Source: Blepharisma japonicum
Taxonomy: Eukaryota; Ciliophora; Heterotrichea; Heterotrichida; Blepharismidae
Reading direction: 5' to 3'
Length of the DNA stretch: 64,000 nucleotides
NCBI GenBank assembly: GCA_949751835.1
Contig: CATKHK010000098.1
Coordinates: 1 to 64,000, forward strand
The notes beneath the pieces were generated by a model. The model was not told the origin of the DNA, made no database searches, and saw nothing but the letters and a program-made list of their open reading frames with translations. This document shows positions 1-55,201 of this stretch, one piece after another. The number at the start of each line of letters is the position of its first letter. Position 1 is the first letter of the stretch. The position numbers were made by a program, and so were the translations under genes.

Positions 1-17
1 GCCTTGTTTGCGTTTGC

Positions 18-1735
18 TAAGTTTATTATTTCTAAGCTCAGATTTTCATTTCTAACCTTTTCTTCATTAAATTCATTCGACAAGTTCAAATAATTAGTTT
101 TAAGTGCCACAAACTCTATTTTCAAATTTCTTTTTTTTCTTCTAGCACCTTTTTTAGCTTTTCTTGCATTTCATTAATAGCCTGCAACGCTTTTTCTTGC
201 TTATATTGGCAGCCAAGACTTCATTTTCTGCATAAAATATCTTTGAATTCACATCAAGATCTCCTTTTCCTATTTCATGCTGCAGTTTCGCATTTTCCAT
301 CTGCAATTCAATAAGTGCTTTCCCAATATCTAGCCTTGCTTCTTCTGATTTAATCAATTCTTCTTGAAAATCTGTTTTTTTTCCTTTATCAATTTGTTAT
401 ATGCTGCTTTAATATTTCTCATCCTTAGAATCAGCTGTGATTTTTCATCAGCAATTCTCAGTTTTTGCAAGTTTCCATCAATCAGCTGCTTTTTAAGTCT
501 GTAATTTGCCCTGAGCCTAGAGCTGAGACTCTGAGGAGGCTTATTTGGTTCATCAAATTCATGATCTCAATTCTGCATTTCCCGAGTAAGCCTATTTGTC
601 TGTTTCAATAATCACTGGGAATTTGATAGTAGCCTTCAGCATTTTCATGTAATTAAGCACAAGCAAAGACCCTATGCTATCTCCATATTGCAAACAAGTC
701 AAGCACATTGATAAACAGTTGCCTGCAAAGATGCCTTTAAGCAAATGGGTTACATTAGACCCATCATACCTTATATAGTCTTCTTTATCTTGCCTGATAT
801 TTCGTATGAGCTCTCCTATAGTTAAAACTGCTTTGTTCAATGTATTTCCTTCACAACTCCTTAATGTCTCTGCATCTTATTCAGCTTTTCCATCCCAGAC
901 AGGTGTACAAAGTTCAACCTAGAAACCAATACATTTGCGTCCTTTGAGACCTGGTCCACTGCAATCTGCAAAATTCGACTGTGAAAAAAGTGGTTGCTTT
1001 ATCACTTAGAAGCCCGAATTCATTAGTAATTTGAGTTCTATTTCTTCTGGTTAATGTGAGCATGCCAATGAGCTCATGAGAGCTGTTGCACTGGAGCGAG
1101 CTTGCATTTTTCACGGCTGGGTCTTCTCATTCACTCTGCACAATATGCAGAGTTCCTAGGATTCTTGAACTGGACTAGATCAATAAGTAAGAAACTTCTT
1201 CATTGACGATTTCGAAGTAGTGAATTCTGACTGAGTATGAACAGTTTGAGAGCTTCCTTAAGAAGGCCGCCCTTAATTGAGCTTGTACTTTTTTTCGTTG
1301 AGAGATTCAAATAGAGGCTGAAAAAAGTAGTGAATCAAGCCGGACTCGGAGCCTTCACCCTCAAGATCGAAGGTTTTGCCTGATCCTGCCATTCCAAACT
1401 TACAATTCCTACATTTACACCTTCAAAAATTGCATCTAAATAAGCTTGGCAAGGATTTGGAAGATTTTGTAGAGAGGAGCTCCACGATCATAAATATCCC
1501 CACATTCGAATTCTTCACGAACTCGATTATTTGCGTCGAAAACTCCGATCTTAGTTCCTGTTATTTTAAGTCTTCTCGGAAATAGCCTGCGTTAGGCTTG
1601 ATTTTATGACTGATTGGATTGGAACACCAATTGCTAACTGTTTTAAATTGTGTGCTGTATTTGTAACTGCTATTTTAATATAATTCTTATAGAAAGCTTA
1701 CTATGATTAGTGTTTTAGAAGGTTATATATTGGTG
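18..1735 (-). pseudogene. kinesin-like motor gene remnant, copy A
   Basis: Decayed copy of a kinesin-like motor gene read on the minus strand. The clearest pieces are the region around 1370-1640, matching the N-terminal motor part with a P-loop-like GSGK motif near 1370-1390, a piece at 914-1114 and a piece at 592-840 (LNKAVLTIGELIRN, then a YIRYDGS motif like the kinesin YR-DSKLT region). The part below 540 is coiled-coil-like. Reading frames are broken by single-base differences and in-frame TAA/TAG. It is a near-identical direct repeat of 9635-11325, and both copies end 5' at the same point without an ATG. The left end may continue outside the window. Inferred to be non-functional. Confidence 0.7.
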
Positions 1736-9634: not shown

Positions 9635-11325
9635 TAAGTTTATTATTTCTGGGCTCAGATTTCATATCTAACCTTTTCTTCATTAAATTCATTCGATAAG
9701 TTCAAATAATTAGTTTTAAATGCCAAAAACTCTATTTCCAAATCTCTTTTTTATTCTAGCACCTTTTTCAGCTTTTCTTGCATTTTATTAATAGCCTCCA
9801 GCGCTTTTTCTTGCTTCATATTGACAGTCAGGACTTCATTTTCTACATAAAGTTCCCTTGAGTTCACATCCTTTTCTCATTTCATGCGCATTTTCCATCT
9901 GCAATAAATAAGTGCTTTCCCAATATCCAGCCTTGTTTCTTCTGATTTAATCAATTCTTCTTGCAGATCTGCTTTTTCCTTGATCAATTTGTTATATGCC
10001 TCTTTAAGATCTCTCATCCTCAGAATATGATGTGATTTTTTCATCAACAATTCTCAGTTTGTGCAAGTTTCCATCAATCAGCTGCTTTTCTAAGTCTGTA
10101 ATTTGCCCTGAGCCTAAAGCTGAGGCGCTGAGGAGGCTTATTTGGTTCATCAAATAATGATCTCAATTCTGTATTTCCTGAGTAAGCCTACTTGTCTGTT
10201 ATCATTTGCCATTGGGAAATTGATAGTAGCTTTCAGCATTTTCATGTAATTAAGCACAAGCAGCGACCCTATGTTGTCTCCATATTGCAAACAAGTCAAG
10301 CATATTGATAAACAATTGCCTGCAAAGATGTCTTTAAGCAGATGGGTACATTGGACCCATCATACCGTATATAGTCTTCTTTATCTTGGCTGATATTTCG
10401 CATGAGCTCTCCTATAGTTAAAGCTGCTTTGTTCAATGCATTTCCTTCACGAATCCTTAATATCTCTACATCTTCATTCAGCTTTTCCATCCAAGCATGT
10501 CTACAAAGCTCAACCTAGAAACTAATACATATGTGTCCTTTGAGACCTTGCCCACTGCAACCTGCAAAATTTCGACTGTGAAAAAAGTGGTTGCTTTATC
10601 ACTTAGAAGCCCGAATTCATTAGTAACCTGAGTTCTATTTCTTCTGGCTAATGTGACCATGTCAATGAGCTCATGAGAGCTTTTGCATCGGAGCCAGCTT
10701 GTATTTTTTACGGCTGGGCCTTCTCATTCACTCTGCACAATATGTAGAGTTCCAAGGATTCTTGAATTAGACTAGATCAATAACTCAGAAACTTCTTCAT
10801 CGACGATTTCCAAGTAGCGAATTCTGACTGAGTATGAATAAGCTTGAGAACTCCCTGAAGAAGGCCCGCCCTTGGTTGAATTTGTACTTTTTTTCTTCAA
10901 GAGATTCAAATAGAGACTGAACAAAATAGTGGATCAAGCCTGAGTCGAAGCCTTCGTCCTTGAGATTCAAGGTTTTGCCTGATCCTGTCGTTCCGGAGCT
11001 TACAATTCCTACATTGAAACCTTTAAGAATTGCACCTAAATAATCTTGGCAAGAATTTTCGAAGATTTTGTAGAGAGGAGCTCCACCATCATAAATATCC
11101 CCATATTCTAATTCTTCACGGACTCGATTATTTGCGTCGAGAACACCGATCTTGGTTCCTGCTATTTTTAAGTCTTCTCGGAAATAGCCTGCGTTAGGCT
11201 TGATTTTTATGACTGATTGGATTGGAGCACCAATTGCTAGCTGTTTCAAGTTGTGTACTGTATTTGGGGCTGCTATTTCGATATAATTCTTATAGAAAGC
11301 TTACTATGATTAGTGTTTTAGAAGG
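9635..11325 (-). pseudogene. kinesin-like motor gene remnant, copy B
   Basis: Second copy of the sequence at 18-1735. The longest open piece (11249-10797, starting TTG) carries the kinesin P-loop (SSGTTGSGKT) after a beta-strand opening like SVIKIKPN. The next pieces carry LSFVDMLGW, in the place of the kinesin LVDLAGSE switch II, and LNKAALTIGELMRN. Upstream of 11249 the frame runs back to a TAA without meeting an ATG. Frameshifts separate the pieces. The switch II glycine and glutamate are not intact, so motor activity is unlikely even if transcribed. Confidence 0.7.
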
Positions 11326-25049: not shown

Positions 25050-25541
25050 AATTATATAATTATTATGTAAGATATTGGCATTATTACTTGATCAGGTCTT
25101 TAATTTATGCAATTTCTACTAAAATACATGTTGCGAGGATCACATTCAAGTTGATAAGAGAATCCTTCTATTGAGTAAATATTTTCCTAATATTTTATCG
25201 ATTTTTCTGGCAAATCATAGCAGGCAGAAGGTGCTTGCTTTAATAATATTTTGTATATTAAAAATATTTATGTACGCTATTCAAATTCTCATTCATTATA
25301 TGAATTCTGCAGCATTAATTCTATCAAAAAAGTATCATAAATATCTGTCAAATGGACCTTCCATTCTATAATTAAATTAATTTTTAGTTCAGTAATTTGT
25401 GCATTCTAATTATTAATATTATGAACTTTAAATTAAATAATATTTATATATCTCGGTGCAATTTCTATAAAAAATCAATAATTTCACTCTCACAACCCAA
25501 TAATCAAAATTAATTCAATTTATAAAGAATTCCATATTAAA
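25050..25541. other. intergenic between divergent genes
   Basis: AT-rich spacer that must carry the promoters of TMEM43 (minus) and the calpain (plus). A 66-codon TTG-started frame at 25171-25371 has no ATG or family match and was not called. Confidence 0.5.
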
Positions 25542-27914
25542 ATGGATTCAAAGTTTATCTCAAAAGAAATTTACTCTGGAGTTTTCGTACACCGCATCAT
25601 GAAATCTGATAACCAACAAGAATTCCAAATTGAAAACAAAAGATTTAACACCCTCGATTTCACGATTGATTTTTCCGGCTCTCAAGAAATCGTCCTTAAT
25701 GGATTTAGCGGATTATTGGTATCTAGTGAAATCCCACCCAAGAAGCTTGTATCTTTAGTCACAATTGGCACTCCTCCAGGCTCAAAAGTGGTCGCCAAAT
25801 TTAAATTCAACTTAAACCCACCCCCTCCTGAGCTTGCACGCTCTGTAATTGAAGAAGAAGCTGCTGAAAGAGTCAAGAAATTAAGAGTTGCAAGTAAAAT
25901 TTTTAAAGAAAACCCTATAAACCTGACAAGTTTATCATATATCCATGACGCTCTTGACGGCATTAACTTTGTGGACCCTTATTTCCCACCTTCTGATAAC
26001 TCTATATACTCAGGGACCGCATTTCAGCCTGATGCCCTTGTACATTGAAGAAGAGCCCAAGATATTTTTGGGGCTAATTATGAGGTATTTTTAGATGAAA
26101 TTGAGCCAAATGATATAAAACAAGGGCATCTAGGTGATTGCTGGTTTATGTGCGCTTTGGCTAGCTTAGCAGAAAGGCCACAATTGGTGCAGAGGCTTTT
26201 TGTGACTGAAAAAGTAAACCCTGATGGGATATATAGGGTAAGATTTTGCAAGAATGGAGAATGGGTCGTGGTAACTGTAGACGACTATTTCCCTTGTTTT
26301 CCTCAAGGAAACCCAATATATTCAAGGTCTCATGGAAATGAGCTTTGGGTGCTACTATTAGAAAAAGCTTATGCCAAGCTCCATGGGAGCTATATGTTAT
26401 TAAGAGGAGGCTGGGCATTAGAAGGAATGATTGATTTAACAGGCTGCCCAACCAAAACTTTTGATATAGAAACCAGAGAGGTCGAAGAAATGATTGAAGA
26501 AGACGTGTTTTGGAAAACTTTAAAAGAGCTTGATGAAGATGGAGCATTAATATCAGCAAGCACGTCAGGAGAAGACAGATGGACTGAGTCAGGTGGACCT
26601 GATCAATCTGGAGGACTAGTCCCAGGACATGCGTATACCATAATTCAGGCTAAAGAAGCATTAGGAAACAGACTCTTAAATATAAGAAACCCATGGGGAT
26701 ATTTTGAATGGGACGGTGACTGGAGTGACAAAAGTCCTTTATGGACCCCTGAAATAGTAAATTTATTGAAGCCAGTGCTTGACGAAAATGATGGCACTTT
26801 TTGGATGAGCTATCAAGATTTCATCAATAAATTCAAAAAAATCAACGTGTGCTTGGTAAACAGCTATTATGAAGCTAGATTAAAAGGGAAATTTATTAGG
26901 ATAAATATAGATGAACGAAGTACTGTGATATCAAGATGGTACTATTGTGTCGATGTCCAAGAAAACACAGTCCTTCATATTGGAATCCATCAAGAAGATG
27001 AGCGCATTTTTGGGGTACATCTCAGAAGAGGGTATTTAGATATAGGATTTGTGGTCCTTAAAAGGGATCGTGGAGATGCTCCTAAAGTATTTTATTATCA
27101 GCCTAATAATATGGACCGACAAGTAGAGGTTGAGCTGCAGCTAGAGCCTGGGAGCTATATAATTCTGCCAAGGACAACTGGCTGCAAGCTGTGTAGACCT
27201 CCTCAGTCTAAATCTGAATATATACGACTTATAACAGGAAAACACTTAAACCCTCTATTTGAGTCTACTATAAAAGACATTTTCAGAAAATTCGACATGA
27301 GGGTAAGCGGGGATTTAAATTTCAATGAATTTAAAGCTTTATTAGAATCTGTAGGTGAAAATTTGACCATTTTAGAGTTTGACCAGTTGAGGAGGGACTA
27401 CTGCAGCACCCAAAATGGCATCACAATTGAAGGGCTGCTTAATTATTTCAAAGACACCATATTAAAGAACGGTGAAGATAAGGTCTGGACTTGGCTAAAC
27501 GCCCTTGGGTATGATAGAGACTTATATTCCATAAAATCACGCTGCTTTATGCTAACTGCTCATTCTAATAAACCACTAAAAATGACTATGAGAGACGCTG
27601 TGAACTCAAACCTCGACAAATTATCGACTTTAGAACTTCTCAGAAGATACGGCAAGAAAAAGAATGACCAAACAGAAATCGATTTAATGTCCCTCATAGA
27701 GCCAAATGCTGGTGGATTCACATATGGAGTCTTTAACAATTCCGAAGACAGGACGCTTAACCCCAAACTTGACTGCAGAAACGTCAAAGGTGCCTTAATA
27801 AGCACCATGACTGATATCATTTCTATAGATCTGCCTCCTAAAACAGGGGACATTTTGGCTCATTTTACAAGAATTAGTGACGATTTTGATTTTAGAGTAA
27901 ATTTCAGTTATTAA
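25542..27914 (+). CDS. calpain-type cysteine protease
   Basis: 790 residues with TGA (Trp) at about 26046. The catalytic triad is complete: Cys200 in LGDCWF, His363 in PGHAY and Asn383 in RNPWG. Upstream is about 160 residues without a recognised domain; downstream is a C2-like/CBSW region (RWYYCVDVQENTVLHIGIHQ) and then an EF-hand-like helical part near residue 585 (FRKFDMRVSGDLNFNEF). Domain order fits a classical-like calpain with a calcium-responsive tail. The gene ends 1 bp before the stop of the convergent NB-ARC/TPR gene. Confidence 0.9.
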
Positions 27915-27915
27915 C

Positions 27916-30900
27916 TTATTGTCGACTTAATAAAGCTAATTGGTCTCTCGCGTTTTTGGAATAAGGATGGTCTCTTCCATAGGCGTCGCTCAATATTTTT
28001 ATAGCTTTCATTATGACTTTTCTGGCTTCCACCATATTTCCTTTATGTTTCTCCAAAACTCCTATATTCAGTAAACAGTCAGCTACATCAGGATGATTAT
28101 CTCCCAATTTTTCAGTTCTGATGCCTAAAGCTTGGGTTAAATATTTGGAAGCCAGCGCATAATTTTTCATTTCGTCATAAGCCACGCCTAAGTTCACCAA
28201 AGGTGTAGTTACTTCAACAGAGCCTTCTCCTAGGTTTTTTTCCATAATCTCATATGCTTTTGATATGCATTTTACAGCTTCAGCCATTTCTTTTTTCTCA
28301 GAATAAGCTAGGCCAAGGTTATTATAAGAATAAGCCACCTCTAGTTTTCGGGCGCCTAGGCATTTTACTTTGAGGTCTAAAGCTCGCTTGTAGTTTTGTA
28401 TAGCCTGAGTCAGGTCTTTGTCTTCAAAATAAGCATTTCCCAGGTTATTATAAACTTTAGCAACCTCTAAGCTGTTTTTTCCAAATAATTCACTTTTCAG
28501 TTTTAGTGCTTCATGCAGAAAATCTTCAGCCGCTGTTGGATTTTGCTCAATTTCTAATGAAAAAAGTCCCATTAAATTCAACAGCTCTGAAGTCTGCTCA
28601 GTTCTTAGCGTCGTAAGTTTCAAATACGACTGCAAATGTGGAGCTAATTTTCTATAAAACTCCAACTTATCAAACTGCTCACTATTATACGTAAAAATTG
28701 ACGTAAAAGCTGCTTCTAGGCCTCTCATAGCTTGGCCACTGAGCCTGTATTTTTCTTTTACTACAGCTTGAATAATTTTATGCATGGTCACATTGCCTTC
28801 ATCGTCTAATTCTATTAGTGAAAAGGCCGCTATAAGGCCCAAAGCTTGTTTATATTTCATGACGTCTCCTTTTCTAGCGACATTAATGAAAAATTCTTTT
28901 GAAAATTCTTGTGGGATTGGGGTGGAGCCTAGATGAGCGATTCCTTCAATCCATAATAAAGCGTCTTTATTCTGCTGGCCAATTTCAGTTAGGTTAATGC
29001 TCCATGTGGCTGATGCAGTATCATTGTCACCGACCCTTAAAACAGCTTGGTCTTGGGTAGTCAATAAATTCAAATATTCTGTATATGAGGTGCGGGTTTG
29101 TTTCATAAAAGCTCCAGCTTGACTCAAGGCTAAAGGAAGGTCTCCAAGCTCGTCTGCTATTAAATTTGCATTGGCTTTATCATTAAAACCTGTAGAGGTT
29201 TGTAAGAGCTTAATTGAGTCTTCTCTGGCTAATGGTGATAATTGGTAAACATTGTCCCAGTTAGGGTTTCTTGAAGTAATCAATGCGACTCCTTGTCCAC
29301 TTGGGATGAAGTCTGAGACTAGCTTAGGGTTTAGCGCATTGTCAAATATAAGTAGTCAAGGCGATGTTTCCCTTGTAAGAGTCAAAATTATTTGTTTAGC
29401 AACTTCATCTTGCCTTGAGTTCGGGCTTGAAATTCCCATAGCTTCTGCAATTTCCATATAGGAAGCTTCAATTTGAGACTTCCCCCCTGCATCAATCCAC
29501 CAAATAAGCCCAAAATCGTCTTGGTACTCATTAGCAAACTCAATAGCCACCTGAGACTTCCCAACCCCTCCCATTCCTACAATAGCTATTTGTGTGACAG
29601 TCCTCTTTTTCCTTGGCGGAATCATAGCTCTAATAGCCTTAATCTCCTTAGATCTTCCTAAAAAGCTTTGGTTTTGTAATGGAATTTTACATAAGTTCCC
29701 TATATGTGAATTTTGTACAGACTGCCTATCATCAATTCTATGCATGACTGTAGAAAATTTTCTATCAAATTTTTTCCATAATTCTGAGGTTTCGCTTATT
29801 AAACTGTCAACTTTTTCTTTAATTTCTGTAGTAGAGCTTTCATATTTGTCAAGAAATGACATTTCTTTGCCAAATTTTGAGCCGATTTCGTTTATTTTGT
29901 CGATTTGAAAAGCCATGCATTTTCGCTGCTCACGTAGCCCTTCGACGATTTCGTCATAATCTTTGCCACCCTGAGATGTCCTAAGCTGCAATTCTAGCTG
30001 TTGGAGAATTTCTTTTTGCTCGTCTAAGGCACGCTCATAACGGTCTTTGCGCCTGTCCCAGGTAGCTTCGAGAACTGCTTTGGCTGCTTGGACTGATTCA
30101 GGGTTTGAAAGGATTTCTCTGACCCTTCTGTCTGATTCTAAAATCATTCTGTCAGCTATAATATCCGTAGCTTTTTTCTTAAATGAACTGTTATCACATT
30201 CAGAAATTTTTGCAAGACCTGAGGCTACTTTTTCCCTTATTCTCCAATTGTCGCCCCACAGCCTATCACTGATTCAATACCCATTAAAACTGGCAAAATC
30301 CAAAAATCCAAGGTGTTTTTGTGCCTTATCGCCTTCTAAAAAGGTTTTTCTGATAGCAATATCAACATTTTTATCTAAAATAATCCTTTCGACTTCATCC
30401 AAAATAATATAAAGTAATTTCCACTTGCTGCCTTTATGGGACTGTAAAAAACTGAATAATAAATCATAAGCTTCTCCATCAGTTTTGGCTAGTTCTCTTA
30501 AATAGTCTAAAACTAATGAATTTAAGGACAAATTAAATTGCAATGTGTCTCTTAAATTTTCCAAAATGTCCTTAAGCAGCTCTAAGCCGCTTTGCACATC
30601 TTTATTAACGACCACTTCTATGAGGTTTCTACCATTGCTGATGAGCCCTACATACCATCTTTCATCAGTTTTCATAAGATTTATGACAGATCTTATAGCT
30701 TTTATATCACAAAGAAGCCCGTTTTCTGGGAAATTGCTTTCTTCTTCTAGAATTCTATGTGCAATTGATTTTACAAGCTCAGAAAGCTCGCCTTTGTGCG
30801 TTTCGGTGAAACTAACCTTGTCAGGGGCTTTGTGATAGGCGAAAAACAAGAGCTTCCTTGCCATGTTCGTGATTTCTCTCCTGACATCGCTTCAGGAGCT

Positions 30901-31482
30901 TTGCTCTCATATTCCTTCCCTCTCGAGGCAGTTTAAAAGAGCTATTGATGAAGCTATTGGTGTTGCATGGTTCCCTAGAGAAATTTTTCGAAGAGATTGG
31001 AGGGAACTAACTATGTCTTCAATAACCCCTTTTTCAGCTCCAGATGATAAGAGCTCAAGTGACTCGGAAATTTCGTATTGGAAGTCTCGCTGCTCTTTAC
31101 TTAATGAGCTGTAAGTTTTAGCACTGAGGTCATCGTTAACCCTTTGTTTTAAACTGTCCAGTTTCTTATTGCCGCTTATGGGTGCTTGGCTGCTTGAGGG
31201 TTTCTCGGTGGAACTTTTGCACATGCACATACCACCGCCTTTGAGACCATAAGGGCCGATGATGATAAAATGTTGCCCTTTAGTATTGGTTTCAAAATCA
31301 ATTAAAAAAGAATTTGGGTGGTAAAGCATTTTTCAAGCTTTTGAGCAGTCAATGCCTGAGTAAATTACTTCAACGTCTTTGTAAAGCGATTCTCCAAATG
31401 CGCCGAAAACTTGGGCTTTTTTTTGGGATAAAAATTTTACTTGTTTGCCACCTCTTGCTTGAATCAAAAGAGATGTATCCAT
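27916..31482 (-). CDS. STAND NTPase: novel N-terminal module, NB-ARC, TPR repeats
   Basis: 1188 residues from ATG 31482 to TAA 27916, open through several TGA Trp codons (near 31332, 30905, 30270, 29353). Residues 1-210 are the family-specific N-terminal module (KKAQVFGAFGE; FIIIGPYGLKGGG; helices). Residues about 210-600 are helical. The NB-ARC NTPase has a P-loop GMGGVGKS at 636-643, a Walker B WLLIFDNA and a sensor-like GVALITSRN. A winged-helix-like region follows, then five 42-residue kinesin-light-chain-type TPRs (about 970-1188). NLR-like STAND proteins oligomerise on ligand binding; here the TPRs would be the ligand-sensing end. No transmembrane segment. Closest relatives in the window are 37681-41621 and 53057-55201. 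Confidence 0.88.
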
Positions 31483-33873: not shown

Positions 33874-35862
33874 TTATTTATAAAGTAAAGGAGCAAGAGA
33901 ATCGTCAATTTCAAAAACATTTTCTCCGTCCTTATAATTTTGATACTCGCTCTCCCAATATTCAATATTCTGTATTATATTTCTCATACAAACAAAGACT
34001 GCTAGTTCTTCATTTTCTTCATTATTTTGCCTTATGAAATCTTCCCAAGTCTCAAAAAGTGGCTTAACTAATATCTTTAAGAAGCCATCCTGTGACTTGC
34101 TGATTACAACATTTTCTCTGTCGCACAAAGGGCTGATTGCAAGCCCTTGACTTCTCTCCATATCGCCCTGCTTAAAAAATTCTTTTGTAATTAAATTTGT
34201 CCACTTTTTATGTATATCTAATAATTTTGCCCCATGGCCTATGTCAGCACATTTAAGGCAAATTTGCAGTGCTTGCATCCTGAACTTGTCATCATCCAAG
34301 GTTTTTTTATTAGAAACTTGGACTTTAAACTCCCCAAGCTTATCAAAATGTACCTGCAAATCAGTCGACAAAATCGATAAAATCACGATTTTTCTGAATT
34401 TTTGAAAATCTGGCTTTGAAAGCATTTTGATTATATTTGTAGCTGGCTGTGATAAAATTCTAAAAACTTTCGAGGCGTGCATATGTTCTAAGACACTTTG
34501 GTCGTTATACCTTAAAGCTAGCGGGTCACGGTTTGCAATTAAATATGCATTATTAACCCCAGGATGTCCAATATCATGGCATAATGCAGCTACAACCAAA
34601 GCAAAAATTTCAACATCAACGAGTGAGCCACACATTCCGAGGCCTTGGTGGACCAAAAATACAATTGATGCTGTCACATCAGCAGCATGCAATGAATTAT
34701 GGTAAAAATTTTGCTTACTATACCCTGCCTCCACATCAGTCAAAAAATGCTGTAGAACTGCATTTTCTATTTCAAACCTTTCCACAAGGCCTAAAGTATC
34801 AAAAACGTATCTTCCTACTTCAAATGCAGGGTTATAAGTGATCCCTAGCAGCTTAAAAGTGTCAAAATCCCAGTCTTCAATAAACTCGAGGATTTTTCCA
34901 AGGTTTTCTGACTCTTCAATGACGCTTTGTATAATTTTTGGGACCCTTTTTTTCCTAGGAGACATCCTTCTTTGGGACCCTCCAGGCAATAATTCGATGT
35001 TCTGTGTATACAGATTTTTTGCATTTGACCCAAACATAGTCAAATCTTTTTCTAAGTCAATTGCAGAGTTTGGATTTCATATTAAATATTCTTTGTTTAT
35101 TAGCGATGTAATTGCTTCTTTTACTTCATCATTTAAATTAAATGTCTTTTTACCTGGAGATGAAAGAGCTGACGAATTATTCGAGCTGCTTGTATTTAAA
35201 TGAAAACAAGTGAAATCACTTGTACTGGAATGAAATTCAAATTCCGCGTCACTGCCAGACTCAATGTCTGATGAGTCAGAACAAAATTTAGTTATCTGTG
35301 GGTGGATTGCTCCAATTTTTTTTAATTTCTCTGCAAGTCTAGTAGAAACTCTTGGAAAATTGGGTAGCTCAAATGCACTTAATTTCTTTTCAAGTTCGTT
35401 AACTTTGTCTTGGAGATAATGATTTTTTATTGATAAACTTTTGCATTTATCTTGTAAATTTTCGTAGTCATTATTTTTTGATGCCTGAATAAGTGTGATT
35501 ATAATAGTGCTTATTAAAACCACACACTCGTTTTGGCCTCTGTGAAAAAATCCTCCGATTAAAAATCAGAGAATTAAGTTTGTTAGGCAAAGCTGGACTG
35601 AGTTTTGAAAGTCTAAGCCTAAATAAAAGGGGCCTATGTAAATCATTATGCATAAATTCAGCAAATCTTGAACTGTCAGGGATAGCAGAGAAAATGTAAT
35701 TGAGAATAGGGCTGAACAAAAATATTTTGATTTTTGGCTCGGGATTAGGAGAATTAAGGCGTTTATAGTGCCTTTGAGGAGGCTGTGAAGAGAAAAGTCG
35801 ATAAAAATGAAGCTTGCGGGGATGCTTAGTGTAAGTAACAGATTCAAAGTATCAATTTTCAT
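33874..35862 (-). CDS. membrane-anchored 3',5'-cyclic nucleotide phosphodiesterase
   Basis: 662 residues with TGA Trp codons near 35563 and 35074. Residues 1-125 contain several hydrophobic segments (at least four to six membrane passes), followed by a short coiled coil and a Ser-rich linker. The class I PDE catalytic domain spans about 330-640: FYHNSLHAADV (His388, His392), ALCHDIGHPG (His429, Asp430, His433) and LKCADIGHGA provide the metal ligands. It hydrolyses cAMP and/or cGMP; nucleotide specificity cannot be decided by eye. A multi-pass N-terminus on a PDE is typical of protists rather than animals. Confidence 0.88.
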
Positions 35863-36263
35863 TTTTCTTATTTAAATAGGTATATGCATCTTCCATTTAA
35901 ATAGCAAAACTGACATATATTTCTGTTATATTGATAAGGATAAATTATTTAAATTCTGGCCAATAATTAAAAAAAAATGACCTAAAAGCTAAAATTTTGA
36001 ATTTTATTATTTAATTCGTTGGAATATGTCAATTTTTTTGATAAATCCTTGGTTTAATTGATTTAGAAAATCAATTAAGCGATTTCTTAAATTGTTGACT
36101 AACAGAATTTATATTAAGACAAGAAGAGTATTTTGAATTTTAGATAAACTCAAATGCAAAAGAATTAATTCATATCCGTAGTTTCTACTGATTTGTTAAC
36201 TATAACATTAGATTGGTGTGAAAAAATAACAAATATAATCTTATTTCAGAATAATCTTAGATA
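35863..36263. other. intergenic spacer
   Basis: AT-rich spacer between the phosphodiesterase start and the end of the otubain-like gene. Nothing further recognised. Confidence 0.5.
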
Positions 36264-37280
36264 TTAATTATCATTACTCATCAAAAAGTTATATTTTCCT
36301 TCGTCAAGGCTATATTGCTCCATTTCATGTTCTCGCTTTGTATACAATATATCATAATGTCCACTTCTTCTTATGATTGAAATTGGATCCAGTGAAGAAT
36401 TATTTTCTTCCGGGTAGCAATGCGCAACAACTGATTCAAAAATGCTATAATGAACCACTTGAATCCCTAATGCAATTGGCAATGCAAATAATTCTAAGTC
36501 AGCAGCCTCTTCTCCAGCTCTCAAAATATTTTCAACTGTCATCCCGACGTCCTCAAAAATAAAATCTCTAATTCTTTCATCAGACCTTGCAATAACTCCT
36601 GCAGATAGCAATCTTCCAGTCATAAACATGCTTTGATCAAGATTTGGGTCCTGTGAATATTTTAAAAATTCCAAAAAGGCCTGCACTGGAGACTTTTGTT
36701 TTAAACTTAAAAATCAATCTAAGTATTGTATCAATACATTTTTGCATGCTAGAAAGGTTTCAAATTGAGAGAAATTTCGAAGATATTCTTCATCTTGCCC
36801 AGATCTCAATTTTGCTAAAAAATTCTCTAATTCGGTGGTTGCTGAATGTGGCTTAAGCAATTTTTCAAGAAAGCTATACATTACAGCTCTGTAGTAGCAA
36901 TTTCCATCTCCTCTACTCTTTTTCCAGGCAGAGAATTTAATTTTTATCGTTTCAATGCATCTTTTGAAGGTTTGGTTATATGGAGCTATTTCTTTCATCT
37001 TATTCAGAGGTATCCAAAATTTGCTGACTGTCTCTGGGTACTTATCGTGATCATTTTTAACATCTTCATCAAAAATTTTGAAGCCTTGCCATATGCATGG
37101 GTTTTTTTGATTTTTGGAAGCAGTTTTAATGCTGGGATCTTTAGGAATATCTTTAACTTGTGAAATTTCATTTATAGTTTGAGCCAATGGTTCTCTTTGA
37201 GATCCAAGTCTATTGTTTTCGAGGGCTCTACTTGGAATATTATGATTAGAATTCTGTTCTCTGTCTTTTTGATTTTTCAT
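36264..37280 (-). CDS. OTU-type (otubain-like) cysteine protease
   Basis: 338 residues with one TGA Trp near 36713. The catalytic cysteine lies in SRGDGNCYYRAVMYSFLE (residues about 124-141, Cys in GDGNCYYRA) and the histidine in SGHYDILY near residue 314. Length, the long helical insert between them and the family motif fit the otubain (C65) group, which removes ubiquitin, preferring Lys48 links in animals. The first 110 residues look disordered. No ubiquitin-related neighbour. Confidence 0.85.
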
Positions 37281-37680
37281 ATTTTATAATTCTATAATTA
37301 TGACATAATTTGACTATATATAACACTACAATATTGCTAATAATGATTAAAATCAGCTATAGCTCTATAAACTAATAAGTTTTCTATAGAAAATTATTTA
37401 ATATAATTCATGATAGCGATCTGAATACTTAAATAAGGTCTATAATATTTATTTCAAAATTGTTAAGACAAAAAAATCTTCATACTTTTATTCAATTTTG
37501 ATAAAATCCAAATAAAAATGATAAAATAATAAATTATAATTTTCTCTTAATTTTAATCGACATCTAATGATTATGGCGTAGAATCTAGATTCTATAATAA
37601 AGCAATTTACTAGAAAAATTATATCTATTATTAGAATTTTCTTGAGCATTTATTTTCATGCAAAATTTTGGCAATGTCTA
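37281..37680. other. intergenic spacer
   Basis: AT-rich spacer between the otubain-like gene start and the stop of the NB-ARC-kinesin gene. No feature recognised. Confidence 0.5.
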
Positions 37681-40600
37681 TTATAAATCTTCATTTATTA
37701 ATCCAGTAAAGTTATATCCCTTTTTTTCAATGATTTCTTCGAAATTCCCTAAATTCATATCAGCCTGCGATGAATTTTCTGAATAACAATTACCCTGAAA
37801 TTCTTTATAAATCGTCTCTATAATTTGCATATCTTTTTCCTGAGCCTGATTTTTTATCTTTAAATCTTCAACTTCCTGCTTTGAATTATAGATTACTACC
37901 AGCTGATCTAAAATGTCTCGTTTATCTTGATGCTTTATTCTTTTTTTAATGGAATCTTTTATTCTTATTCCTTGGTATCTATTTTCTTCCAGCTGTTGAA
38001 TAATTTGCTCTTTTTTCAGTGGATTTTTTTCCTAATTCTCCATTACTATATCGCTTTTCATTATCTGTATTTCTCTATACTGTTCCTTAATGCTATCAAT
38101 AATAGATTGACTATTTTCTGGTTGCCCTTCTTCCTCTTCTTTTATCCATTTAAGTATTTGAGCTTGTTTCATTTTAATATCTGATTCTTGTTCTTCTATT
38201 GTAGCTAGTTCTTTTTTCAGGTAAAACCATTTTTGGAAATTTTCAGAAATTTCATCTTTTAAATTTTTCATTTCTGTTTCATCTTTGTACAGACGTTCTT
38301 TATCTGATAAAGCCTGTTGGTTAGATACTAAATAAATATTACATTGATTTTTTAATGACTCGATTTCAGTTTTTAAATCTGAAATCATTTTTTCATATTC
38401 TTTATAATCTTTCTTATAAAAATTTTTATTTGCCTGAACTTTTCCTTTAATTACTTGAGCACGGTTAGAGATATAAAGAGTACTAGCACTCTCTTGATAC
38501 TGAGATGAGGCAGGCGAAATATTCGAAATCATTACATTTTTACAGTTTCCACCTAGGCAGCCTTCAAGGATGCGTGTAAGTTTTGAATCTCTGTATTTTA
38601 TAAAGCTCTGTCTTGAATAATTCTGTTTTGATGCCAGAGCCTCTATTAAATTGCATAAAGCAAGCAGAGATTTATTGATATTTGCACCTTCCTGTTTTCT
38701 AGTTTTATTATTGCTCACATTTCCCTCAGACCCTGCCAAATCAACCAGTAAAAATTTCCCATGAAAAATGGTATCGGCATTGCCTTTTTCTCTTTGAGAG
38801 ATCTCTAGTATTAGCACAGCATGTGACCTTGAAGAAGTTTTATTTGCACCAGTTTCTTGAGTTACCCTCCTCTCATTTCCTGTCGAAATTCATCACATTG
38901 CTTCATTAGAGTCTTTCACTTCAATTTCTTCGGCCCCACAGATTTTTGTCTCTTTTTTGTCACTTCTAACATCTAAATTAGCTGGATTTTCTGATAGTAA
39001 ATCTGAGACTTTTTCATTATAAATTTGTACGTAAGAAATTTTAACATTGTAGACTTTATCCGTGTCAGATTGGATTTTATCAAAAATTCTATGAATTGTT
39101 AAAGGAATGATGCCTGGGTCGTCAGCTGTGCCAGTCATTGTATACGTTTTCCCTGAACCTGTTGCGCCATATGCTAAAAAGCATGCATTTATTCCAGATA
39201 AAGCAGGCTGAATAAGGTCATATGCCGTATTCATAAAGATTGTGTTATTATCCGTATCTCGAAAAATTTTGTCAAAAGTGTATACTTTAGACTCATTGTT
39301 TCTTCAGTCGTTGATCTTTATTGTATCATTGTCAACTGTGACTACATCCTCATTTTCTTTATTGTTTAAAGGTCTGATGCGTATTACAACCTGCATATTC
39401 TTAGTGACTGGCTCACTAGAAACTCTCTCCTGGCTACTTGGAGCAGTCGGTTGTATTTCTTCTTGAAGCGCATTGCTATTATCATTAAGGCTTAGAACTT
39501 CTTCATAGGAAGATAATTTGTATACATTGCCCTTCCACTTTTCGTTTCTTGATGTAATTAACACAGCTCCATTGGCTTTTGGAATAAACTCAGAAATAAC
39601 ATCAAAATTTTTTGCATTGTCAAAAATAAGCAGCCACTTATTTCTTTGTCTCTCAAGTGATAAAATAATTTGTTTGACGATTTCAGCCTGATGCAAGCTT
39701 GCACTCAAAATCCCTAATTCCTCTGCAATTTTCATGTACGAGGCTTCTATTTGTGATTTACTTACCGCATTAATCCACCAAATAAGCCCAAAGTCTTTTT
39801 TGTGCATTTTTAAAAACTCAATGACTATCTGCGTCTTTCCTACCCCTTCTTCTCCTACAATTACCAATTGCACTACATCTCTATTTCATTCTTCCGGCAT
39901 ATATCTCCATATATTTTCAATATCTGCATATCGGCTTTGATAATTTTGGCTCTGTTGATATGAGTGCATATTGTTGATGCCTTCCATATTTGCACTTGAC
40001 AGAATTAAAATACATAAATTTTCATTATTTCCTTTTTTGATTAGATCCTTAACTTCTGTAATAGATACCCATTGTTCTTTTTCTTTGGAATCTTTATTGT
40101 CAAGTTTTTGGGAAAGTTTTGATACTTCCACAATAATGCATTCAATTTGTTTCTTCTCCTCATTGCTGAGTGATAGATGCTTAGCCATATAGTTTTGGAT
40201 TAGTTCTTTAAGTTCTTCATCAGGAGTTTTGTTTCTGTCTCAAACAGTTTCTAGGATTCTTTGAGATTCTTGAATAGATTCAGGGCTTGTAAGGATTGAT
40301 CTGATTCTTTTATCTCTTTCTAAAGCTCTTAAGTCAACCATTTTTTGTTCTGCCTTGCTTTGAAAGGAAACTTCATCACAGTTTAAGATTTTTATGAGCC
40401 CAGATACTACTTTTTCTCTTATTCTTCAGTATTTTTTTTCCCATAATTTTTAAAGTCAACGAAATCCAAAAATCCTTTGTATCCGTGAATCTTATCTCCT
40501 TCTAAAAATTTTTCTCTTATAGCCTTGTCTATCTTCTTATCTAAAATAACTTCTTCTATTTCATCTAAAATAATATAAAGAAATTCTCAGTCTTTCTTTA

Positions 40601-41621
40601 TATTAGACTGTAAAAAGTTTAAAAGCGTTCCATGAGATTCTGGGTTCTTTTTAACAACATCTCTTAGATATTCTAAGACTAAAGTGTTTAGGGAAAGTTC
40701 AGATTTAAGGAGATCACCTAAAATCTCTAAAATATCATTAATTAACGCTAAGCCACTTTCTAGATCCTTTTTAGCCAAGCAGTCTATAAGGTGCTTTCCA
40801 CCACTTCATAATTTATCATATCATCTTTGGTCAGTTTTCATTAGGTTTACTGCCGAAATTATAGCTTTGATATCACAAAGAGCACCATTCTCTGGATAGC
40901 TACTTTCATTGTTTAGAATTCTGTTTTTAACTGAGTTAGCAAGATCAGAAAGTTTATTTTTATTTTCTTTGAATAAATGTACCTTATTTTCTGTTTTATG
41001 ATAAGAATAAAACAAAAGTCTTCTAGCCAGCTTAAGAATTTCCCTTCTAATATCTCTTCAAGATCTTGACTCTCATATGCCTTCTATTTTAAAGCAATTT
41101 AAGAGCCTCAATGACGAGTTAAGTGGATATATATAATTTCATAACTCAATTTTTCTTAGAAGCTGAAGGGAATAAGCAATATCTTGTATAATCCCACTCC
41201 TAACTCCAGATTCTAATCTCTTTAAATTATCATCAATTTGGACTTGCAAATCTCTTTGTTCTTTGCTGAAAGAACTGTTTGTTTTGTCATTGTAATAGTT
41301 TTCTGCCTTATCTAAAATTTCTATGTTTTTTGCTTTCATACTCAATTTATTTCTTGAGGAACAACCGCATCCTCCTCCTTTCAGCCCATAAGAGCCTATG
41401 ATGATAAAAAATTTTCCTTCGAAGTTGGCTTCTATGCTAACTAAAAACGGTATTTTCTTTTCCAGCATTTTTCATGCTATTGAACGGTCAATCTCTGAAT
41501 AAATTACATCTACATCCTGGGAGATTGGCTCTTCAAAAACTCCAAAAATCTGGGCTTTGTTTGGCGATGAAAATTTAACGATTTTTCCATCTCTGGCTTT
41601 AACCAAGAGGTCTTTATCCAT
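37681..41621 (-). CDS. NB-ARC STAND NTPase fused to a kinesin motor
   Basis: ATG 41621 to TAA 37681, about 1308 residues after splicing one 15-nt intron (38029-38043) and allowing one base missing from an A8 run near 40432-40439. Residues 1-200: family N-terminal module (PNKAQIFGVF; FIIIGSYGLKGGG). Residues about 200-570: helical part. NB-ARC: P-loop GEEGVGKT near 590, WLLIFDNA, GAVLITSRN. After a short linker comes a complete kinesin motor (about 742-1065): VVIRIRPLNN, P-loop AYGATGSGKTYT, switch I NKTSSRSHA, switch II LVDLAGSE, and the YRDSKLTRIL helix; then a coiled coil. The motor replaces the winged helix and TPRs of the paralogue at 27916-31482. All motor nucleotide motifs are intact. 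Confidence 0.85.
38029..38043 (-). other. 15-nt intron in the NB-ARC-kinesin gene
   Basis: On the minus strand the sequence is GTAATGGAGAATTAG: GT/AG ends, exactly 15 nt, and it contains the only in-frame TAG at this point. Removing it joins the coiled coil (KSDI) to EKNPLKKEQ and extends the protein by about 115 residues to TAA 37681. Confidence 0.75.
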
Positions 41622-45000: not shown

Positions 45001-45324
45001 AAGTCAGAAATGGTGCCTGTGGAGCCACAAATCCGAAGCAGACATCATCTCTGATCATTTCTACAGGCTCCATGGTAACAGTTGTGAGACCCCCCTTAAT
45101 GTTCATTTAATGGCATGCAAATAAAATTAAGCTACCTTGTTATCATACATGGGCAGCAAGATTTAAAGATTGGAATGGATTTTAATTTGTGCTACCAAAA
45201 ATTTTTGTCGATCAAATTTATTTATTTTAAAATTGGGGCAAATATATTTATTGAACATAGCGTTAATTAAATATAATACTTGATTTTCAAGCTTGATAAA
45301 TAATAATTAATTTAATCTAATTAA

Positions 45325-45876
45325 ATTAGTGCTGGCCAGCTTAAAAATCTCCCTTCTAATATCTCTCAAGTAGGGTTGATCTCATATTTATTCTTTTTCT
45401 AGGCAGCTTATGATATCTAATGAGGATTGCTTTGCGGATAAAAATTTATTTAGAGGGATATCTTTTAAGAAATTGATTTGGATAACTATGTCTCCAACCT
45501 TTTGATTATCCACTCCAGATTTCAAGATATTGATGGATTCAGTTATTTTTTCCCCATCTTCTAATTGATCTAAGGCAGAGGAGGAGGCGGGATCAAAAAT
45601 ATTCCTGGTATTAACTTCGGAACAACTACCTGCTCTAAGTCCGTAAGGGCCTACGATTATGCATTGCTGTCCTTTGGGACTAGTTTCAAAATCGATTAAA
45701 AAAGGATTTTTCCTTTCCAACATTTTTCATGCTTTCGAGCAGTCAATTCCTGAATAAATCACAACAGCTTTTTTTGAGATAGGTTCTCCAAAAGGTCCAT
45801 AAACCTCAGCTTTGCTTGGTGTTAAAAATTTTACTTCTTTCCCACCTCTTGCTTTTACCCAAAGTGCTGATTCCAT
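45325..45876 (-). pseudogene. truncated NB-ARC family member (N-terminal module only)
   Basis: ATG 45876 begins the family module with PSKAEVYGPFGEPI and CIIVGPYGLRAG, open through one TGA (Trp) to SCLEKE, where an in-frame TAA appears at 45388. Homology continues past it (YLRDIRREIFKLAS) and stops abruptly at about 45325. The NTPase and everything after it are missing. Confidence 0.65.
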
Positions 45877-46859
45877 AATAGCAAAATTGTAGATGAATCG
45901 ACAATTTTGTATTTATCATTAAAAAAATGCCGAAAGAAGGCAATTAAAATTGATCTATAATACTTAAAAGCAATTAGGATTCCAGAATTATTGTTGAATT
46001 TAATTATTTTCGAAGGCTAAAATAATTATATAAACAACTAATTTTTTATAAATTTGTATATGTTAATTTTTAGATTCTGAAGCCGATTCAATAAAGAATC
46101 GATAATTTTGTGTAATAAAAATAAAAAATTCTGTCTAGAAGAAAAATTTACTAAATTATTTTAGCAATTTTATATAATCTTAAATAAACCGAACTTAGAG
46201 TTCTATTATTTTAAACTTTTTATATTTATAAATTTGTTAATTACCTAATGGACTTTGATCTTTAACTATTTAAGTCACAATTTTCATTTTAGGGCCGTCT
46301 TCTGGATTGCTATCGTAATTTATGTCAGCTAGGATTTATATATACATCCTTTTTTAAAGTTAACTTAAGCATTTTTTCATGCAAGCCAAGAGTATCCCTT
46401 TACAAATTATATCAACACCTGCTATTTCTTTTTATATAATCTTTATTTTAGGTAATTGAAATTTAATGATCCCTTCTGTTCCTTCAATCCAAAAGTATTG
46501 AAAAAAATTATGACGAATTAGTTATTCTATTTTATTCACCTTTTAGTAACTTAAAAAATCTGAATTAAAAATCTATATAAAATAGATAGAAAGCTTAATT
46601 TAATAGATCAACAAAGCAAAAAGCGATTAAACTAGAAGAGAAAAATTTAAAATATATTTTTTATAAAAAATTCTTCAGAATAAGCTTTTATAACATAAAA
46701 TTTTATCACATCAAACTATTAGAATTCATTAAGTAATCATTTAAGGCTTTTATTTAACTGGTATAATGTTAGCAAATTTAAAGCAGAGAGTTTAATACTT
46801 TCTTTACTAAATGCCAACCCAAGTTAAGACATCATATTTTAATTATTGGCGTTTGGAGC
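45877..46859. other. AT-rich stretch without recognised gene
   Basis: No coding frame, RNA or repeat was recognised between two relics of the NB-ARC family. Confidence 0.4.
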
Positions 46860-47045
46860 TAGTTGCGAAACTAATCAAAAACGAGTATTTCCTTTCAAGA
46901 AGTTTTCATGATTTTAGGAAGTTAATTCCTAAAGTACATCGGCATCTTTTCAGATTACTTCTCCAAAAGCTCCAAAAACCTGAGTCTTAATCGTTGATAA
47001 AAAATTCACTTGTCTTCCATCTCTGAGCTTAATTAGAAAGGACAT
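46860..47045 (-). pseudogene. NB-ARC family N-terminal module relic (second of a tandem pair)
   Basis: Starts MSFLIKLRDGRQVNFLSTIK and continues TQVFGAFGEVIWKDADVL (TGA as Trp) before in-frame TAG and TAA stops. Only the first 40-60 residues of the module are readable. It lies head-to-tail directly behind the relic at 47054-47620. Confidence 0.55.
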
Positions 47046-47053
47046 CTGTATCA

Positions 47054-47620
47054 TCATAATATTGTTAATGAATAGATTTTATTAATTTTAAACATTTTAA
47101 AAATAGAGTTTTTTTCCTCATATTCATTGGTCTCTAAGCCCTGCAATAGGTCTATGGATGAGATTATTAGAGTTTCGTGGCCCTTACAAGAAGTTTCTCT
47201 TAAGAATTTAAGAGCACTAGTGACTTCGACAATATCTCTATTTTCAATTCCAGATTCTAAGCGCTTAATTGACAGCGATACTTTTTCCTTCTTCAATCTT
47301 TATTTGATCTTGGCTTAAATCATTTTCGCCTTCATTTAGTTTATTTTTTGGGGAAATGATGGATTTTTCCGCCAGCACATCCACACCCGCCTCCTTTGAG
47401 TCCATAAGTCCGACAATAGCAATTCTGCCCTTTGTAGCTAGTAACAAAATTAACTAGAATGGGGTTTTCCTTTCAAGCATTTTCCATGCTTTTAGACAGA
47501 CAATTGTGAGTAAATTACATCAACGTATTTTCAGATAATTTCTCCAAAAAAGCCTTAATTGGTGATAAAAAATCCATTAATCTTCCACATCTCGCTTTTA
47601 ACGGAAAGTGATGTCTCCAT
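47054..47620 (-). pseudogene. NB-ARC family N-terminal module relic (first of a tandem pair)
   Basis: Starts METSLSVKSEMW and carries frameshifted pieces of the module, including the glycine-Pro-Tyr region and the helical segment (LKFLRETSCKGHETLIISSI, matching LRKISLGNHATPIASSIALL of the intact gene). Several frameshifts and stops. Confidence 0.55.
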
Positions 47621-53056: not shown

Positions 53057-55201
53057 TTATTTCATTGATGAGACCAATCGAAGTCCCCTACTGAGACGAT
53101 ATTGGGCATAGGATTCGATATTAAGAGCATTAATTCAGTTTGAATTTCTTGAAGTAACCAATGCAACCCCTCTGCAATTTGGTGTAAATTCTTTTATAAG
53201 CTCAGGATCTTCTGCACCATCAAAAATAAACAACCACGGACGTTTTTGCCTTGCAAGTGCCAACATTATTTGTCTGATGACTTCATCCTTATATAGACTT
53301 GGACTAATTATTCCCAGAGCTTCTGCAATTTTCATATATCCATCTACTATTTGTGACTCCTTCAAAGCCTCCTCAAATCACCATATCACTCCGAATTTTC
53401 CCTGAATCTTATTGACAAACTCTTTAGCCATTTCAGATTTTCCAGCCCCTTCTTTCCCAACAATCGCTATTTGAATCAAAAATCTTAACTTATTTTCTGG
53501 AATTTTTCTTTCTATTTTAGCAATTTCCTGTCGGCGTTGATAATTTTGGCACTGCTTAATCTGGGAGATATTACTAAGATATCCTATGCCATTAATTGAA
53601 GATTTTAATGCTAAAATGCAATATCTTTTGTCAATTTCTGTTCTGCATTTGATAATTTGGTTTTTAACGAATTCAAAGGATTCTCCGTCTTGTTCTCTTA
53701 TATTTCCAAGTATTGAGCTAAGATTATTGATTTTGACCATTAAAGAATTGAAATTTTCTGCTTGATTCTCTTTCAAATCTTGAAATGCTATAAGCAGCTC
53801 TTCAATAGGTTCTCGGCGTATGTCTCAAGTTTCTTCTAGAATTTTTTGAGCATCTTGTACATTTTCTGGATGTAAAAGAATATTTTTTACTCTTTTGTCT
53901 GATTCTTTTTGTATTCTTTCATCTATTACAGCTCGTGCTGTTTCTTGAAATGAGGTTATATCACATGTAGAAATTTTTGCAAGTCCAGATGCTATCTTTT
54001 CCCTAATCCTTCAATTGTCACTTAAGTGATAGCTATGAAATTCGGCAAATTCTAAAAATCCTGGATATTTTTTATCCTCATCATTATTTCCTTCTAAAAA
54101 TTTTTTCCTGATAGCTTCATCTGTACCTTTATCTAAAATAACCGCTTCAATTTTATCCAAAATAATATAAAGCAATTCTCAATTGCTGTCTTTGTAATAT
54201 TTTAAACACCCATGCAACTCATAATAAGCATTTATATCAGTTTTCAATAGATCGCTTAGATAGTCAAAGATTAATGAGTTCAAGGGCAGATCAGAACGTA
54301 TAGCATCTCTTGAACAATTTCAAATATCTTTAAGTAGCTCTAATCCACTATCTAAATCTTTTTTGAGTAAACAGTCCACTAGATGCTTTCCATGCACATA
54401 TAATTTTGAATACCATCTTTCTTCTGTTTTTATTAGTTTTATTGCTGATTTTATAGCTTTTATATCAGCAAGGAGACCATTTTCTGGAAATTCTTTTTCT
54501 TTATTTAGGATTTTATTTTCTATTGATTCGGCAAAGTTAGAAAATTCGTCTTTATTTGTTTTATAGAAGTTTGCTCTGTCTCTTGATTGATGAAAAGCAA
54601 AAAATAATAGCTTTTTGGCCATGTTAGAAATTTCTCTTCTGATAAATATTCATTGCTTATTCCATATGTTCTCTTCATATAAGCACCCCAAAAGCAATTT
54701 TGCAGAGGAGCATGGATTTCCATAATATCCTAAGGGAATATTTCCTAGCTTTTTTAGGGAAGATTTAATATTTTCAATGAACCCACCTTCAGCTCCCTTT
54801 AATAAGTTTGAGAGAGAATCTTGAATTTCTCTTTGAAGGTCTCTTTGTTTTTGATCTAAAGAGCTATAATTTTCATTACGGATATTTGTAATGGCTAGCT
54901 CACTTATTTTTTTTAAGTTAGGCATGATTTTTTGTGAGCCACAACATACTCCTCCTCCATTGAGCCCATAAGGGCCTATAATAATATAATGCTTTCCATT
55001 AGGACTCTCTTTAAAATCAATTAAGAAAGGATTTTTCTTTTCTAGCATTTTTCATGCTTTTGAGGAGTCAATACCTGAATAAATAACTCCTGCGTCTTTG
55101 CAAATAAGTTCTCAAAAAGCTCCAAAGATTTGAGCATTGTTTTGTGATGAAAATTTCACAAATTTTCCAGCCCTTGTTTTAATCAAAAGAGGATCATCCA
55201 T
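53057..55201 (-). CDS. NB-ARC STAND protein without C-terminal effector
   Basis: 714 residues, ATG 55201 to TAA 53057, continuous through TGA Trp codons. N-terminal module (NNAQIFGAFWE; YIIIGPYGLNGGG), helical middle region with KKLLFFAFHQ and NWRIREKIASGLAKI, then NB-ARC with P-loop GKEGAGKS, WLFIFDGAE and GVALVTSRNSN. The protein ends about 20 residues after that, with no winged helix, TPR or kinesin part. The frame is intact, so it could be an expressed truncated form, for example a regulatory partner that co-assembles, or a recent 3' truncation. It is the third intact member of the family. Confidence 0.78.

Follow-up and report, generated by a model that had tools for sequence, protein, structure and literature searches.

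A probable fusion of an NB-ARC-family N-terminus to a divergent kinesin-8-like motor in the ciliate Blepharisma japonicum

The stretch of DNA discussed here, referred to as the window, comprises bases 1-64000 of contig CATKHK010000098.1 (C98) of the ciliate Blepharisma japonicum, whose genome assembly (GCA_949751835.1) amounts to 45.2 Mb in 224 contigs. On its minus strand, from 41621 to 37681, lies a gene, hereafter the target, that an earlier note on this DNA had described as an NB-ARC NTPase fused in frame to a complete kinesin motor. The target is probably a genuine fusion gene, in which an N-terminus of the NB-ARC family would dock or regulate a divergent, kinesin-8-like motor. Good support for the fusion, as judged from sequence, comes from an open frame, a coding-like linker, the loss of the kinesin start, constraint on both halves and the lack of duplicate halves among the genome matches listed. 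The constraint on the motor, a ratio of nonsynonymous to synonymous substitution (dN/dS) below 1 in the NB half and a conserved tail intron, GTAATGGAGAATTAG, likewise count in its favor.

The minus-strand frame from 40449 to 38047 is open for 801 codons, with neither TAA nor TAG, when TGA is read as Trp. This one frame holds the P-loop GEEGVGKT and the ITSRN motif of the NB half, the linker, VVIRIRPLNN, and the GATGSGKT, NKTSSRSH and DLAGSE motifs of the motor (Table 1), which bears out the claim that the gene passes from the NB-ARC P-loop through the linker into the motor without interruption. The same could not be said of the whole span from 41621 to 37681, as codons 1-400 (41621-40422) belong to a different frame, closed by a TAA. 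Genes in the window read openly through TGA, and in the cases examined in-frame TAG stops are excised with 15-nucleotide (nt) introns. The macronuclear genome of B. stoltei (41 Mbp, AT-rich) is described as using UGA for tryptophan and as having introns of mostly 15 and 16 bp (PMC9942806), and the two conventions seen in the window are thus consistent with Blepharisma. The GTAATGGAGAATTAG intron of the target recurs with identical sequence at the same place in a stand-alone kinesin on contig C6 (L010), and the candidate GTAATTGTTATTCAG sits at about the position of a stop-removing 15-nt intron in that gene.

The linker joining the two halves resembles coding sequence. It has a GC content of 0.395, no stops and an in-frame codon log-odds score of 0.58 bits per codon. 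Same-length controls were drawn from upstream of the starts of stand-alone kinesins, 17 loci of which were compared in all, with L015 and L017 omitted here as having no clear start; all 15 of these controls have a GC content of 0.143-0.286, in-frame scores of -0.361 to 0.171 and 1-9 in-frame stops. At the motor end of the linker, the target residues SSEPVTKNM align with MNEIDAKNM (L010) and MTEIEASNM, with which its stand-alone relatives begin; judging from this alignment, the ancestral kinesin start is lost and some of the residues that followed it are kept. The copy searches for either half, as with the genome-wide lists of kinesin and NB-ARC matches, give lower bounds; within them, no second copy of the target motor was seen, the nearest being 53% identical, nor was any orphan ARC-TPR half, as only a neighboring paralogue (paralogue A) covers the ARC stretch among 20 matches and the other 19 lie in the TPR region at 22-34% identity.

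The N-terminal partner is recognizable as a member of the NB-ARC family, albeit an incomplete one. The NCBIfam model NF040586 matches the target with 108.9 bits (E 2.6e-31) over model positions 11-144 of 830, under its whole-protein cut-off of 300 bits, and the Pfam NB-ARC model, applied to the NB piece alone, gives 35.6 bits (cut-off 23.5) over positions 4-161 of 248. In a scan of the whole 801-residue protein, NB-ARC is absent from the matches at E<=0.1, and the best NTPase match is AAA_22; searches with PADLOC returned weak matches only. Three motifs of NB-ARC and STAND proteins are found in this half, namely Walker A, a Walker B-like LLIFDNA and ITSRN, the last being the sensor-type arginine motif. 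The ARC subdomain and the winged helix, which in known STAND proteins supply the switch contacts GLPL and MHD, respectively, are missing: the NF040586 match stops at position 144 compared to 373 in paralogue A, and the Pfam match at 161 of 248. Neither part of the target matches a C-terminal repeat family at E<=0.1, and paralogue A bears TPRs. The description of the target as an NB-ARC domain fused to a complete kinesin hence stands as to the fusion and the NB motifs, but has to be narrowed to the NB half of the domain. This half has a dN/dS of 0.169 against paralogue A and 0.222 against a third family copy (copy C), although dS is near saturation, such that a recent loss of function would stay hidden. 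A three-way split of dN (target 0.170, A 0.128 and C 0.217 in the NB half; 0.203, 0.161 and 0.196 in the N-terminal part) gives no clear sign of an excess in the target over its paralogues.

The C-terminal partner shows what is expected of the kinesin superfamily, a motor domain with P-loop, switch I and switch II. It is 53% identical to the motor of L010 and 49-52% identical to that of a second stand-alone kinesin on C123 (L011). In a motor tree of 17 rows, from which L017 was omitted, the target groups with both at a support of 96/99 and with L010 alone at 80/74, although the tree program warned against relying on where the long branch of the target is placed. The motor dN/dS of the target, computable against L010 but not against L011, is 0.226, compared to 0.036 between L010 and L011; here too synonymous change approaches saturation. 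At such divergence, some 800 codons free of constraint would be expected to gather stops, and none is present; over its history as a whole, the constraint on the motor is, by these sequence comparisons, relaxed but not gone. The top 14 rows of solved-structure sequence matches, for the target and L010 alike, are KIF19, KIF18A, Kip3, kinesin-8 chains and chains that bear just the name 'Kinesin-like protein', including a 'Kinesin-like protein, Kinesin-1 heavy chain'; KIF4 follows for the target and KIF13B for L010. KIF19 and KIF18A are kinesin-8 members, and it is from this ranking that the motor is called kinesin-8-like. The genome holds a large motor set, with at least 124 kinesin motor matches in a profile search in which 122 of 165 candidates were scored. 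Two pairs of kinesin matches, on C63 and C17, each resemble one gene split in two.

Table 1. Features of the target gene and of related copies in the window (w/ TGA read as Trp where stated)
Feature	Coordinates	Strand	Remarks
Target N-terminal part, 400 codons, ATG to TAA	40422..41621	-	open with TGA = Trp; no known family
A8 run at frame break	40432..40439	-	flanking TAT to TGA: 14 nt in target, 15 nt in copy C
Region between break and NB domain	39934..40449	-	homologues in A and C, 38-39% identical across 164-172 codons
NB half of NB-ARC	39523..39933	-	last codons overlap the stretch counted as linker
Walker A / P-loop GEEGVGKT	39832..39855	-	GMGGVGKS in A; GKEGAGKS in C
ITSRN	39544..39558	-	from sequence
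Linker, 49 codons, ITSRN to conserved motor Met	39397..39543	-	final codons align with stand-alone kinesin N-terminus
Kinesin motor, kinesin-8-like	38452..39381	-	PF00225, E 4e-95, profile 1-326/327; 317 bits in genome profile search
Motor P-loop GATGSGKT	39145..39168	-	from sequence
Switch I NKTSSRSH	38821..38844	-	from sequence
Switch II DLAGSE	38725..38742	-	Arg that comes next in L010 and L011 missing in target
15-nt intron GTAATGGAGAATTAG	38032..38046	-	excises in-frame TAG at 38034-38032
Probable second 15-nt intron GTAATTGTTATTCAG	37779..37793	-	frame-neutral candidate
C-terminal tail and stop (TAA 37683-37681)	37681..38031	-	tail shorter than in L010
Paralogue A	27916..31482	-	N-terminal region as in target, entire NB-ARC including winged-helix stretch, and TPRs; single frame, TGA = Trp
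Copy C	53057..55201	-	N-terminal region and NB half as in target, followed by a stop; single frame, 714 codons
N-terminal region remnant	45277..45876	-	in-frame stop
Further short N-terminal remnants	46846..47620	-	46846-47051 and 47412-47620

The relatives of the target within the window give some indication of how its N-terminus was assembled. Paralogue A, some 9 kb from the motor of the target, matches NF040586 with 310.9 bits (cut-off 300) over positions 1-373, and thereby passes the bacterial family model for an FxSxx-COOH system TPR protein (27919-31482, minus strand), which raises the possibility that its NB-ARC-TPR portion is bacterial in type. The earlier observation that this paralogue combines NB-ARC with TPRs of the kinesin light chain type proved correct, with kinesin light chain structures near the top of its solved-structure matches. 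The parallel drawn from it is real in sequence, but its connection with kinesin is probably coincidental because NB-ARC precedes TPRs in fungi too, where TPRs are described as preferentially following NB-ARC (PMC4986451). A link between paralogue A and nephrocystin-3 was considered and set aside, as TPR_NPHP3 reaches 64.7 bits under a cut-off of 100 and the likeness is one of TPRs only. Copy C matches NF040586 with 75.4 bits over model positions 11-142 (residues 556-691) and stops 23 codons past the end of that match (691/714), near where the target enters its linker. Since copy C ends alike, the target is not alone in its NB truncation, which is likely, on this comparison, to be older than the capture of the motor or separate from it.

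Ahead of the NB half, the N-terminal part of the target is 53-54% identical to that of paralogue A and 49% identical to that of copy C, and yields no Pfam or NCBIfam family match under the thresholds applied. The region has no relatives in the viral and prokaryote collections searched. Its seven matches in the genome fall on C98 alone (A, the target, C and the remnants), save for a weak match on C5 (E 0.001). The remnants listed in Table 1 are those of a locus that gains and loses copies.

The frame of the target breaks between 40452 and 40419, at a run of eight adenines. Among GT-AG stretches of 14-29 nt, none connects the two frames, which disposes of a frame-shifting intron at this place; L017 apparently has a frame-shifting intron of 16 nt. 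General base loss in A/T runs likewise finds no support, as five other distinct A8/T8 runs in long open reading frames of the window keep frame, as do eight runs in those of the fetched loci, a count that omits L009 and L019 and in which one run (L004) was probably counted on both strands. An assembly indel at the break is possible but not systematic. The heptamer A_AAA_AAT at the break fits the rule for programmed -1 slippage, and is a candidate site for it. The dN/dS of the N-terminal part is 0.214 between the target and A and 0.419 between the target and C, of the same order as the 0.287 between A and C, and the break is thus likely a recent mutation, an assembly indel or a site bridged by slippage.

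From these features, a route to the present gene may be proposed. A local tandem NB-ARC family would have given rise to a truncated form ending after the NB half, as copy C still does, and this truncated gene would have been joined in frame, via a short linker, to a complete kinesin-8-like gene of motor and stalk, which lost its own start. Its product would come from a single transcript and, should the frame break prove spurious, have an estimated length of about 1,300 residues; it would be a microtubule motor preceded by a module of the NB family. Most likely, the N-terminal region and NB half would then form a head for docking or regulation, which may pair with the related regions of A or C and may be tuned by bound nucleotide, and which would so place or restrain the divergent motor. 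A fuller version, with two working nucleotide sites, an NB half lacking ARC and winged helix that recruits or regulates the motor, possibly by pairing with the NB-ARC paralogues, and an origin separate from that of the plant NLR-kinesin fusions, is offered as tentative and, taken whole, somewhat doubtful. If the protein is made, it would be a natural test of an NB half without its switch parts, and of a kinesin bearing a large folded N-terminal partner. The presence of copy C, paralogue A, the fused target and the stand-alone L010 in one genome makes the steps of domain fusion directly comparable.

Several observations weigh against a fusion gene. Codons 1-400 do not share the frame of the rest of the target, and constraint is weaker between the break and the NB domain (dN/dS 0.317 against A and 0.593 against C). 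The linker also scores in its two remaining frames, at 0.379 (1 stop) and 0.442 (6 stops), so its score partly reflects composition, and the Met at 39396 is a possible inner start of a separate kinesin. The family remnants nearby are compatible with a decaying locus, as are the altered columns and the long branch of the motor described next. As for the motor, which the earlier note had called complete, all motifs and profile positions 1-326 of 327 are indeed present, but it is altered at 9 of 75 near-invariant columns, none of them affecting the P-loop, switch I or switch II motifs given above (15 of the 17 other motors are altered at 0-3 of these columns, L017 at 12 and L018 at 16), and its branch is very long (1.44 compared to 0.023 for L010 and 0.026 for L011). 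Lastly, no other gene combining NB-ARC and kinesin was seen in the genome on comparing by eye 13 NB-ARC matches with the kinesin matches in these lower-bound lists.

The main alternative holds that the target is two adjoining units, a kinesin beginning at ATG 39396, with a short upstream region of its own, and, before it, a decaying NB-ARC fragment whose frame is open by chance. This would accommodate the frame break upstream, the remnants nearby, the weaker constraint ahead of the NB domain and the Met at the motor start, which is kept from stand-alone kinesins. It is nonetheless unlikely, given that the stretch preceding 39396 is unlike the 15 stand-alone kinesin upstreams in GC, codon score and stops, that the ancestral start position has lost its ATG, and that the NB half, with a dN/dS of 0.169-0.222, has no stop of its own, such that any translated NB half enters the motor. 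A second alternative, raised in the earlier note, is that of an oligomerizing STAND switch that would gate microtubule movement; the intact P-loop, LLIFDNA and ITSRN lend it slight backing, but the stretch for ARC and winged helix present in paralogue A is absent (144 of 830 model positions compared to 373), and a switch of this kind appears improbable. By analogy with plants, the motor could instead be the bait or sensor of an immune-type protein, as in NLR proteins with integrated domains (NLR-IDs), a list of which includes a kinesin domain (PMC4759884, Table 2), and fast evolution of the captured motor would suit this role. The receptor half, however, has lost its switch and repeats, the motor has kept its nucleotide motifs, unlike a mere bait, and no immune role of the NB-ARC family in ciliates appeared among the literature matches listed; we consider it a poor candidate. 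A false join in the assembly at about 39.4 kb, which should leave a second ARC-TPR half or a close kinesin copy where none was seen in the lower-bound lists, and which would have to fall in frame within a coding-like linker, is very improbable. The fusion gene is thus the reading retained here.

Other genes and matches were noted along the way. The neighbors of the target include a calpain (25482-27911, plus strand), a cyclic nucleotide phosphodiesterase (33877-35871, minus) and an otubain-type protease (36267-37283, minus), the last with six further genome matches at E<=1e-10. A divergent kinesin-like gene at 10797-11249 (minus) matches Pfam Kinesin with 39.9 bits (E 3.2e-10); it extends to about 9600, changing frame several times, and is possibly intron-rich or decaying; by eye, a similar copy of its downstream part lies at the edge of the window (1-1200, minus). 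Elsewhere in the genome, the NB-ARC match that comes closest to a listed kinesin, target aside, is at C2:174267 (E 0.09, under cut-off), 5.3 kb upstream in the same orientation; it was rejected as a further fusion because by eye it reads as a separate, small-GTPase-like gene with other open reading frames between. Pairs of same-strand NB-ARC matches separated by about 3 kb occur at C15:475103-478603, C12:390545-394042 and C7:718486-722001, and these three pairs have no listed kinesin match within 15 kb.

The target may be compared with several known systems. Its closest solved-structure sequence matches are the kinesin-8 motors KIF19, KIF18A, Kip3 and Plasmodium kinesin-8, from which it differs by its NB-family N-terminus, its very long branch and the lack of an Arg after DLAGSE, along with a tail shorter than that of L010. 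The stand-alone kinesins L010 and L011 share its motor, and L010 also its tail intron, but both are without the NB-family N-terminus and are strongly constrained. With the NB-ARC/TPR STAND proteins (NF040586, FxSxx_TPR; fungal receptors) it shares the NB half (E 2.6e-31), and paralogue A has their arrangement of NB-ARC and TPR; the target itself lacks ARC, winged helix and TPRs and carries a motor instead. No NB-ARC-kinesin protein of a ciliate was found among the matches listed in the open-license literature, mostly titles and the beginnings of abstracts, and passages of two further sources report no such fusion (PMC11096116; PMC4986451). In plants, kinesin stands in a table of effector-target domains also found in NLR-IDs, 41 domains according to the excerpted text (PMC4759884, Table 2), and IPR001752 (kinesin motor) is given, in part of another source, for a Pisum sativum NLR set drawn by NB-ARC and LRR keys, where the presence of NB-ARC in the same protein is uncertain (PMC11734081). 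Plant NLR-IDs typically keep NB-ARC and LRR, whereas the target is truncated and belongs to a ciliate; a separate origin is likely. NLR-kinesin fusions are already listed for plants, and the ciliate case would be a variant of this kind of domain combination.

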